Source: Rhodovulum visakhapatnamense (GTDB taxonomy: Bacteria > Pseudomonadota > Alphaproteobacteria > Rhodobacterales > Rhodobacteraceae). Taken from it: a stretch of DNA of 64,000 bases. Below the pieces are notes generated by a model. It searched no databases and was not told the origin of the DNA. It was given only the letters and a program-made list of their open reading frames with translations. Location of the stretch: NCBI RefSeq assembly GCF_004365965.1, contig NZ_SOEB01000011.1, forward strand, positions 1 to 64,000, read 5' to 3'. The position numbers were made by a program, and so were the translations under genes. Shown here one piece after another: positions 50,585-56,776 of the stretch (position 1 is the first letter of the stretch; the number at the start of each line of letters is the position of its first letter).

Positions 50585-51988
50585 TCAGGCGGCGCTTCGC
50601 GACATCTCGACCGTGTTGCGCCCGGCGGCCTTGGCGCCGTAAAGCGCCCGGTCGGCCTGATCCATCAGCCCGCGCACCTGCGCCTCGATATCGGGCGCGC
50701 CGGACATCAGGCTGCGGCCATCGCCCAGCGCGACGCCCACGCTGATCGTCACCCGGATCTCGCCCGCCCCGCCCGGCAGCGCCACGGGACGGCATTCGAT
50801 CGCCTGACGCAGCCGCTCGGCGGCGGTGCAGGCGCGGTCGGCGTCGGTCTCGGGCAGGGCCACCAGAAATTCCTCGCCGCCGATCCGGGCCACCAGATCG
50901 ACCGCGCGCAGGTTCTCTTTCAGCCGCCGCGCCACCTCGACCAGCACCGCGTCGCCCGAGCCGTGGCCGTAGCGGTCGTTGACCAGCTTGAAGCGGTCGA
51001 TGTCGAGGATCATCAGCGCAAAGCTGCGCCCGGTCTCGGCCGCGCGTTCGGCGATCCGCGCCAGATGGGGCAGCGCGTAGCGGCGGTTGAAAAGCCCGGT
51101 CAGCGGGTCGGTCACGGCCAGCCGGAGGCCATCTTCCAGCGTCGCCCTCAGCCGGTCCGACTGGGTCTTGCGGCGGATCTGCATCTTGATCCGAAGCGCC
51201 AGTTCCTGCGCGTCCATCGGGTCGGCGATCAGGTCGTTGGCCCCAAGATCGAGCGCCATCGCCGCAGTCTCGCGCGCCGATTCCGGCACCACGATCAGGA
51301 TTGCGGCATCGCGCGACACGGGATGGGCGCGCAATTCGCTGACCAGCCGCAGCCCGGCGCCCTCGGGCGACAGATCGGCATCGACGACATAGACATCGGG
51401 CTTGGGCGCCCCGGGCAGCGGGTTCAGCGCCTCGGCCCGGCTGAGCACCGTCAGGCTGTCCGAGATCTGCGGCACCAGCGCCGCGCGCCAGGCCCGCGCC
51501 CGGCGCGGGTCGCTGGCGATCAGCGCCACCAGCCCGGGCGGGATAAAGCCGGGGGCTGCCTCGCCGAAGCCCAGAACCTGTTCGGTCCCGTTCCGGAGTG
51601 CCAGTTCCTCGGCGGTTTCCCGCGCCCGGAGCAGGCTGCGCACCCGCGCCAGCAGGATCATTTCGTCCAGCGGTTTCGACAGGAACTCGTCGGCCCCGGC
51701 CTCCAGCGCGCGCATCTTGGTTTCGGGCGCCCGGCCCGCGGTCACCACGATCAGCGGGATCGAGGCGGTCTCGCGGCCGGATTTCAGCATCCGGCAAAGG
51801 TCGGTTCCGTCGATGTCGGGCAGCCCCATGTCCAGCAGGATCAGGTCCGGCCGTTCGGCGCGCGCCACCTCAAGGGCCGTCCGGCCGTCGCTGGCCTGGA
51901 GGACCTGGTAATGGGCGTTGCGAAGCCGGACCTTCATCACGATCCGGTTTGTCGCTACGTCATCCACGATCAGTATTCGGCGGGACAT
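50585..51988 (-). CDS. pleD: PleD-like diguanylate cyclase, REC-REC-GGDEF
   Basis: A 467-residue response regulator that makes cyclic-di-GMP. The first receiver (1-125) has the phospho-Asp in LILLDMGLPDIDG and a conserved Lys in FLSKPL. The second (about 155-275) is degenerate. The GGDEF domain (about 300-460) has the active GGEEF and an inhibitory I-site R-A-V-D five residues before it. It is divergent from DUF3572 across 124 bp, an arrangement I associate with Rhodobacterales. Confidence 0.93.
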   Translation of the reverse strand: MSRRILIVDDVATNRIVMKVRLRNAHYQVLQASDGRTALEVARAERPDLILLDMGLPDIDGTDLCRMLKSGRETASIPLIVVTAGRAPETKMRALEAGADEFLSKPLDEMILLARVRSLLRARETAEELALRNGTEQVLGFGEAAPGFIPPGLVALIASDPRRARAWRAALVPQISDSLTVLSRAEALNPLPGAPKPDVYVVDADLSPEGAGLRLVSELRAHPVSRDAAILIVVPESARETAAMALDLGANDLIADPMDAQELALRIKMQIRRKTQSDRLRATLEDGLRLAVTDPLTGLFNRRYALPHLARIAERAAETGRSFALMILDIDRFKLVNDRYGHGSGDAVLVEVARRLKENLRAVDLVARIGGEEFLVALPETDADRACTAAERLRQAIECRPVALPGGAGEIRVTISVGVALGDGRSLMSGAPDIEAQVRGLMDQADRALYGAKAAGRNTVEMSRSAA

Positions 51989-55055: not shown

Positions 55056-55154
55056 GTCCAGGTGCCGCAGCGGCAGTTCGGTTTCATTTGCCATTTCTTA
55101 AGGCGGCGCGCTGAGGATCGCCCAGGCCAATCATCCAGGAGTGGGCCAGTTCGT

Positions 55155-55742
55155 ATGCACGGGCTGATCAATCGCGCTATTCATTTCTTTCTTGCCGACA
55201 CCTACGGCCGTCAGGTGTGGGGAGAGATTGTGCGCGATGCCGGGCTGGAACGCCATGCCTTCGAGTCGATGCTGAGCTATGACGACAAGACCACCGATGC
55301 GCTTCTGATCGCGGCCAGCGCCCGGCTGTGTCTGCCGCGCGCCATGCTGCTGGAAGACCTGGGTACCTATCTCGTGTCGCATCGCGCGCTGGAACCGGTC
55401 CGCCGCCTGCTGCGCTTCGGCGGCGAGACATTTCTCGAGTTCCTGTTCTCGCTCGAGGACTTGCCCGACCGCGCCCGGCTGGCGGTGCCCGATCTCGACC
55501 TGCCCGAGCTGCGCCTGGCCGAAGACGTCTCGGACGGGTTCAAGCTCGACTGTCGCGGCGGCTGGCCCGAGGCCTTCTATATCCTGCAGGGCCTGTTGCG
55601 GGCGATGGCGGACGATTACGGCGCGCTGGTCCTGCTCGACCCGCTGGAAGAGCGGCCCGATGGCGGGCTTCTCGGGGTGCGCCTGCTGGATACCTCCTTC
55701 TCGGCCGGGCGCAGTTTCTCGCTGAAAGGGCCGATGGCATGA
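55155..55742 (+). CDS. H-NOX-like (haem NO-binding fold) protein lacking the proximal histidine
   Basis: A 195-residue protein that begins MHGLINRAIHFFLADTYG and contains the H-NOX helix pattern LLEDLGTYLVSHR and FGGETFLEFLFSLEDLPDR. In haem-binding H-NOX proteins the last segment carries the proximal His (D-x-L/V-H); here that residue is Pro104. The haem propionate motif Y-x-S-x-R is reduced to the Arg of KLDCR (R134). It therefore should not bind haem in the normal way. Its stop overlaps the diguanylate cyclase gene, so it probably modulates that enzyme, as H-NOX partners do. Confidence 0.8.
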   Translation: MHGLINRAIHFFLADTYGRQVWGEIVRDAGLERHAFESMLSYDDKTTDALLIAASARLCLPRAMLLEDLGTYLVSHRALEPVRRLLRFGGETFLEFLFSLEDLPDRARLAVPDLDLPELRLAEDVSDGFKLDCRGGWPEAFYILQGLLRAMADDYGALVLLDPLEERPDGGLLGVRLLDTSFSAGRSFSLKGPMA

Positions 55743-56776
55743 ACCTGCCGCTCGATCCCCGGCCGCGCGACCGCGTGCTGGGCTTGCCCGGGGCCTCGCT
55801 CGACCGGCTGATGCCGATGCATGTCTGGATCAGCGCCACCGGCGATGTGGTCCGCACCGGACCGACCCTGCCGCGGCTGGCCGGAGGGCCGGTGACCCTG
55901 CGGCCCTGGACCGAGGTCGTGACCCTGCGCCGGCCGCGCCCGACGATGCGGCTGGAAGAGCTGTTGCGGATGCAGGGGGTGGCGCTGAAATTCACCCTGA
56001 ACGCGGTGCCCGAGATCGCCCTGAAGGGGCTGGTGGTGCCCTTGCCCGGCGGGGCGGCGCTTTTGAACCTGTCGCTCGGGATCTCGCTGATCGAGGCGGT
56101 CGGGCGGTTCGACCTGACCCTGTCCGATTTCGCACCGACCGACCTGGCGGTCGAGCTCTTGTATCTCAACGAGGCCAAGACCGCCGTCGCGGGCGAATTG
56201 CGGCGGCTGGCGCTGCGGCTGAACGGGGCCCGCGTCACCGCCGAGGTGGAGGCCGCGACCGACACGCTGACCGGGCTGGCCAACCGGCGCGCCTTCGACG
56301 AGGCGCTGATGCGGCTTTCGGCCAGCGGGCTGCCCTTTGCGCTGCTGCAGCTGGACCTCGATCTGTTCAAGGCGGTCAATGACAGCCATGGCCATGCCGC
56401 GGGCGATGCCGTGCTGCGGGCGGTGGCCGCGGTGCTGCGCGGCCATTGCCGCGGCCGCGATGTGGTGGCGCGGGTCGGCGGCGACGAATTCGTGATCCTG
56501 ATGGTCGATTTCACCGACAGGGCGAAGCTGTCGGACAATGCCGCGCGGCTGATCGCGCGGCTCGAACAGCCGATGCAGGTGCAGGAGACCGAATGCCGGA
56601 TCTCGGCCAGCATCGGAATCGCGCTGGCGACCCGGCAACGCCATCCCTCGCCCGAGGTGCTGCTGCAGGAAGCCGATATCGCGCTTTACGAATCCAAGCG
56701 CCGGGGCCGGGGCCGCGTGACCTTCTACGACGACTGGCTGGAACGGCGCCGGTCGGCCAACGGCGACACCGGCTGA
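55739..56776 (+). CDS. Diguanylate cyclase with HNOBA-like N-terminal domain
   Basis: A 345-residue protein. Residues about 1-165 resemble the HNOBA/PAS-like domain that accompanies H-NOX sensors (MHVWISATGDVVRTGPTL, then GLVVPLPGGAALLNLSLGISL, in part). A coiled linker follows to about 180. A GGDEF domain then has TLTGLANRRAF, ARVGGDEFVIL and an I-site R-G-R-D upstream. All catalytic residues are present, so it should synthesise cyclic-di-GMP under control of the overlapping H-NOX-like partner. Confidence 0.88.
   Translation: MNLPLDPRPRDRVLGLPGASLDRLMPMHVWISATGDVVRTGPTLPRLAGGPVTLRPWTEVVTLRRPRPTMRLEELLRMQGVALKFTLNAVPEIALKGLVVPLPGGAALLNLSLGISLIEAVGRFDLTLSDFAPTDLAVELLYLNEAKTAVAGELRRLALRLNGARVTAEVEAATDTLTGLANRRAFDEALMRLSASGLPFALLQLDLDLFKAVNDSHGHAAGDAVLRAVAAVLRGHCRGRDVVARVGGDEFVILMVDFTDRAKLSDNAARLIARLEQPMQVQETECRISASIGIALATRQRHPSPEVLLQEADIALYESKRRGRGRVTFYDDWLERRRSANGDTG

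Follow-up and report, generated by a model that had tools for sequence, protein, structure and literature searches.

Histidine-less H-NOX proteins, the overlap of their genes with a cyclase gene, and the sequence cluster that holds them are already in print (PMC5588039, PMC8738867). As described in the accessible sections of PMC5588039, the H-NOX proteins of Paracoccus denitrificans and Rhodobacter sphaeroides lack the axial His, and P. denitrificans hnoX and dgcA (Pden_3719/3720) overlap; the hnoX mutant showed partly lowered attached growth, absence of BapA, and faster NO consumption. Its authors call H-NOX haem-containing, with NO proposed to act through it, and suggest that NO-bound H-NOX inhibits DgcA, together with an H-NOX-independent effect of NO (PMC5588039). 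A large cluster of H-NOX proteins, "Group 5," carries the proximal His in fewer than 10% of members, mostly has Pro in its place, and has no conserved Cys, and the question of how these members sense anything was raised with it (accessible text of PMC8738867). Among other described systems, the H-NOX of Dinoroseobacter shibae is listed with haem and NO inhibition (accessible part of PMC8846402), while in Rhodobacter capsulatus the cyclase rcc02629, encoded beside a homologue of the D. shibae HNOX, affects gene transfer and motility (accessible part of PMC7232146). The haem-free H-NOX of Vibrio cholerae is a redox switch (accessible sections of PMC7108781 and PMC8738867). In the literature searched, chiefly open-access papers, we found no subsequent functional work on any H-NOX described as His-less; a survey of c-di-GMP genes in five alphaproteobacterial orders (PMC9756655) holds nothing on H-NOX, HNOB, haem, or nitric oxide, and the accessible part of PMC12329717 adds nothing on His-less members.

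Here, we examined such a pair in a 64,000-nucleotide stretch of Rhodovulum visakhapatnamense DNA (the window) and compared it with related loci across its family. The two overlapping open reading frames given by the initial annotation were recovered at the positions listed in Table 1, the H-NOX stop and the cyclase start sharing the four bases ATGA. The pair is a sound observation of an already published kind: like Group 5 and P. denitrificans hnoX/dgcA, it shows Pro for His, no conserved Cys, and an overlapping GGDEF gene, and we found no difference from Group 5, membership being judged by these features. The source genome holds one HNOB match by profile search, together with 11 GGDEF and 10 EAL matches. 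A second GGDEF gene (50585-51988, minus strand, 150 bits) lies ~3 kb from the pair, and the contig has another GGDEF and EAL match at 64.9-66.2 kb, shortly beyond the end of the window.

Table 1. Features of the H-NOX/cyclase locus, in coordinates of the window
Feature	Position	Strand	Basis or remark
Putative CtrA-like element TTTG-N7-TTAA (CtrA-like spacing, divergent first half)	55087..55101	+	pattern search
195-aa protein of H-NOX fold, lacking proximal His and Y-x-S-x-R	55155..55742	+	Pfam HNOB, AlphaFold2, PDB match
Pro104 codon at the proximal-His place	55464..55466	+	alignments
C133-R-G-G-W137 at the Y-x-S-x-R place	55551..55565	+	alignment
Cyclase, 345 aa, start overlapping the H-NOX stop	55739..56776	+	ORF and Pfam
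HNOBA-like N-terminal domain, residues 18-124	55790..56110	+	profile and model
Long connecting helix, residues 136-172	56144..56254	+	model
GGDEF domain	56252..56713	+	Pfam/profile
RxxD I-site (RGRD)	56450-56461	+	starts 9 residues before GGDEF
GGDEF motif	56477-56491	+	read from translation

The H-NOX fold was recognizable, as first proposed. HNOB (PF07700) is the sole Pfam match of the protein (74 bits, cut-off 25.5, E 1.8e-20), the structures closest to it in sequence are those of Nostoc H-NOX and the beta-1 subunit of soluble guanylate cyclase (sGC), and the AlphaFold2 model (mean pLDDT 90.9) predicts an H-NOX fold whose best PDB match in Foldseek is Nostoc H-NOX (2o09, E 8.3e-13, TM 0.79). 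Against human sGC, the model fits NO-activated structures (8hbh, TM 0.84, 2.1 A; 6jt2, 0.81) a little more closely than inactive ones (8hbe, 0.79, 2.7 A; 6jt0, 0.79), a weak conformational hint, given that the NO+Rio state (8hbf) reaches a TM of only 0.77 and that inactive and active Manduca sGC match equally (0.73 each). The H-NOX domain of the sGC alpha subunit is a haem-free regulatory part of a cyclase. It resembles the window protein, which is probably also an H-NOX fold without haem in such a role; it differs in being fused to its own cyclase, eukaryotic, and devoted to cGMP, and its structural match to the window model is weak (8hbe_A, TM 0.49).

Neither the proximal His nor the Y-x-S-x-R motif of haem-binding H-NOX sensors is present in the window protein. 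In an alignment free of gaps around the site, Pro104 takes the place of Nostoc Alr2278 H105, the haem ligand, in agreement with the initial annotation. That annotation had allowed for a His displaced by a few positions; histidines occur only at residues 2, 10, 34, and 76, with none beyond residue 76. C133, G135, and W137 stand at Nostoc Y134, S136, and R138, the propionate anchors, which leaves C-x-G-x-W. The loss of Y-x-S-x-R was thus correctly noticed, but not the survival of one Arg from it, since the motif Arg is Trp137 and the lone Arg134 sits at an "x" place.

The cyclase carries a GGDEF domain (145.8 bits in Pfam) in which both GGDEF motif and I-site are intact, as had been claimed, and thus has the sequence signature of an active diguanylate cyclase. 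Its model (pLDDT 93.5) comprises an N-terminal domain (~18-124), a helix, and the GGDEF domain. The kinship of the N-terminal domain with HNOBA (PF07701) rests on profile matches, because the PDB matches in the 50 rows listed by the fold search were GGDEF-led and not decisive for this domain. In the window cyclase itself, the HNOBA match (residues 19-88) scores 19.6 bits, below the cut-off of 23.4; among relatives, 64 of the 71 aligned cyclases (71 of the 78 described below entered this alignment) match at E <= 0.01, the best at 5e-9, and the D. shibae partner scores 31.5 bits.

To place the pair among its relatives, we assembled 78 proteins of the window's kind, comprising 16 loci from a genus search (including the window's own and L012, whose H-NOX is identical to it) and 62 from a family search with matches in 221 of 295 genomes. 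The 62 come from the best-scoring part of the 221, so canonical features are possibly over-represented among the 78. The family holds two HNOB classes, and 28 canonical loci were sampled for comparison. The proximal-His place is Pro in 60 of the 78, His in 6, and another residue in 12 (Asn in 3, Ala and Gln in 2 each, and Arg, Glu, Thr, Ser, and Lys in 1 each), and none has Y-x-S-x-R or even its Tyr; the canonical proteins have His in 27 of 28 and, at the motif places, Tyr in 28, Ser in 27, and Arg in 28. Pro117 (Nostoc P118) is kept in 78/78. The best 80 loci from named genomes, ranked by similarity to the D. shibae protein, which has His, and including 13 repeats of the first set, had Pro in 48 and His in 13, and 14 further, more divergent loci, read by eye, had His in one (L215). 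In one Dinoroseobacter MAG (L107), Arg occupies the proximal-His place, with Tyr, Trp, and Arg at the motif places. Ordinary haem-NO sensing by the window protein is unlikely, because it has lost its axial ligand as well as the propionate motif, a loss seen again across the clade.

Linkage to the cyclase is strict. An HNOBA-type GGDEF gene follows the H-NOX gene on the same strand in 78/78 members, such a cyclase is also next in 80/80 of the named-genome loci (by GGDEF, with the same 13 repeats) and in 14/14 of the further loci, and a cyclase-like gene accompanies 3 of the 28 canonical H-NOX genes. GGDEF is present in all 78 cyclases and RxxD in 77. With the start codon nearest to a 4-base overlap chosen for each, 58 overlap by exactly these four bases. 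Within the genus, H-NOX is present in 16/16 genomes, each with the cyclase. More widely, an order sample of 61 genomes, all Rhodobacteraceae, gave clade-type matches in 46 (41 at >=193 bits, 5 at 134-156), and in a class sample of 289 genomes scores above 250 bits were confined to three genomes, one of them the window's and the other two from its family; the five other matches in the class sample, one in the same family, had both His and Y-x-S-x-R.

The 78 proteins form one clade (support 99/97) in a midpoint-rooted tree with long branches, adjoining L017, which has a complete haem site. L017 and its close relative by sequence, L213, resemble the window pair in having an HNOBA and GGDEF partner and differ in keeping His and Y-x-S-x-R and in a partner that also bears EAL; we take this HNOBA-GGDEF-EAL arrangement to be the Shewanella woodyi type. 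In L194, from another family, the partner is an HNOBA histidine kinase. The sole HNOB match of D. shibae DFL 12 (L102) falls within the clade; the strain assignment follows from 3,000 bases of a 190,506-base contig that are identical to plasmid NC_009955, which has the same length. Two loci of the window's genus, L004 and L014, group with L102 (96/91) apart from the other 14 of the genus, which suggests transfer or an old duplication. The H-NOX sequences of two genus loci, L005 and L014, are the same as in records of R. bhavnagarense and R. robiginosum.

A single origin of the His-less state was not supported, as Pro and His labels need several changes on both trees built. On the first (85 rows, the 78 plus 7 of the 28 canonical), the Pro label changed 10 times and the His label 6 times, with well-supported branches forcing 5 each; on the second (147 rows, after dropping the 13 repeats and L012), there were 18 and 9, with 6 and 2 forced, these counts being rough given long branches and many weak forks. 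On the 147-row tree, a model without His regain was far worse (lnL -114.8 vs -87.7), and the clade ancestor had His with a probability of 0.62 or 0.46 under two models. His and Pro codons can differ by one base. Compared with four relatives in the same genus, the window H-NOX shows dN/dS of 0.19, 0.18, 0.29, and 0.34, each time lower than its cyclase (0.32, 0.26, 0.44, and 0.48), and is under purifying selection. The ligand place, where Pro and His labels change repeatedly, is thus labile in a protein that is otherwise conserved, at dN/dS of 0.18-0.34.

A possible regulatory element accompanies the pair. The pattern TTnG-N7-TTAA, picked post hoc after viewing the data, occurs within 160 bases upstream of 43 of 77 clade loci vs 0.43 expected by shuffling, and upstream of 1 of 28 canonical loci; the reversed pattern occurs at 1 of the 77, and the window's element is its only match on either strand of the window. 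A wider form, TT-N9-TTAA, occurs at 60/77 clade and 4/28 canonical loci, with 59 of the 60 at -74 to -50. D. shibae HNOX and R. capsulatus rcc02629 have been placed under CtrA (accessible parts of PMC7232146 and PMC9143464). The exact CtrA motif TTAA-N7-TTAA, following the consensus printed in PMC7232146 (accessible part), was found in the 250 bases upstream of 0/78 clade and 0/28 canonical loci, while near matches (7/8 letters) occurred at 14/78 (2.8 by shuffling) and 13/28 (2.0), respectively; the best match in the same 250 bases of the window has 6/8 letters. The element shares the spacing of CtrA sites, but CtrA control may not be clade-specific, because near-exact CtrA-like sites precede 13 of 28 canonical loci.

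From these data, we infer that the window H-NOX is most likely a haem-independent regulatory subunit of the cyclase. In the fuller reading to which we lean, with slightly better than even confidence, the pair would form a diguanylate cyclase of two subunits, one regulatory with an H-NOX fold and the other catalytic with an HNOBA-helix-GGDEF layout, both translationally coupled through the ATGA overlap. It would probably descend from haem-binding H-NOX/cyclase pairs, the Rhodobacteraceae clade having lost the haem site and kept the tie to the cyclase. The haem-less subunit may sit in an NO-released-like conformation and hold the cyclase down, with gating by something other than haem-NO. We count in favor of this reading the 78/78 linkage, Pro in 60/78, Tyr in 0/78, Pro117 in 78/78, the low dN/dS, the match to NO-activated sGC, the P. 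denitrificans hnoX phenotype (PMC5588039, accessible sections), and the best-kept segments in eroded relatives. These relatives, four loci of one genus (L208-L211), agree poorly with the clade consensus at residues 19-60 (0.40), 61-76 (0.39), 93-118 (0.53), and 119-140 (0.25) and well at 1-18 (0.68), 77-92 (0.78), 141-160 (0.83), and 161-190 (0.67), as far as an alignment uncertain across the eroded sequence allows; clade members agree with their own consensus at 0.80-0.94. Residues 77-92 and 141-160, best kept, are hence a candidate cyclase interface. The four also keep RRLLRF and A-M-A-D-D-Y-G-like segments and the cyclase partner, while W22 and Y42 are kept in L208 and lost in L209-L211. 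Against the two-subunit reading we count His in 6/78, the haem and NO view of the P. denitrificans authors (PMC5588039, accessible sections), and the kept hydrophobic pocket, as would be expected if something were still bound.

In one alternative, the pocket left empty by haem would accommodate some other small molecule, and this would gate the cyclase. The pocket places are largely retained (I5 in 55, L73 in 78, F96 in 78, L100 in 77, and L103 in 72 of 78), as are clade-typical arginines (R83 in 77, R84 in 77, R106 in 75, and R149 in 76). The arginines may, however, equally form a protein interface, and in L208-L211 much of the consensus is gone at residues 19-76 and 119-140; we consider this alternative unlikely.

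The fold might instead still bind haem without its usual ligand, e.g., through His2, and sense NO. His2 occurs in 71/78 clade and 0/28 canonical proteins (2 of the 28 being gapped there), a clade member from D. shibae is listed as haem-binding and NO-inhibiting (PMC8846402, accessible part), and the P. denitrificans authors interpreted hnoX in terms of an NO pathway (PMC5588039, accessible sections). However, the D. shibae protein (L102) has a proximal His, the motif Tyr is gone in 78/78, and His2 is missing from 7/78, in six cases together with the proximal His, so that it is not supported as an obligate replacement ligand; we regard haem binding of this kind as improbable. A conserved Cys switch was rejected, Cys133 being present in just 49/78 and the sole column to reach half Cys. 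The V. cholerae protein (PMC7108781, PMC8738867, accessible sections) signals independently of haem through an H-NOX fold, as the window's probably does, but it differs in relying on zinc-site Cys. A decaying relic without function, to which the variable haem-site residues and the eroded segments in one other genus might point, is highly improbable against dN/dS of 0.18-0.34, the presence of H-NOX with its cyclase in all 16 genomes of the genus, and the hnoX phenotype of P. denitrificans (PMC5588039, accessible sections).

Returning to the two-subunit reading, the initial suggestion that the pair senses something other than NO via haem, perhaps through an apo-fold or as a plain protein switch, is partly supported. 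It gains from the loss of the site repeated in the clade, and the plain protein switch is the favored form. It is weakened by the minority that keeps His and by the NO-dependent inhibition proposed in P. denitrificans (PMC5588039, accessible sections). The D. shibae H-NOX/Dgc1 pair shares clade and partner domains with the window pair but has a proximal His, with Y-x-S-x-R absent, and a reported haem and NO response (PMC8846402, accessible part). Its NO sensing is not simply extendable to others, because L102 is a rare His-bearing member, and the NO model derived from D. shibae thus rests on an atypical representative.

The working of an H-NOX that lacks the haem ligand has been raised as a question in print (PMC8738867, accessible sections), and the clade described here provides natural Pro, His, and other variants that share a scaffold and a type of partner, through which the part of signalling that needs haem may be identified. 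More speculatively, and with less than even confidence, a large part of the family may have converted an NO sensor to an inhibitor subunit of a diguanylate cyclase that is free of haem and constitutively "NO-released-like," the ligand being lost and sometimes regained, so that haem sensing would be an optional add-on to a protein-protein switch.
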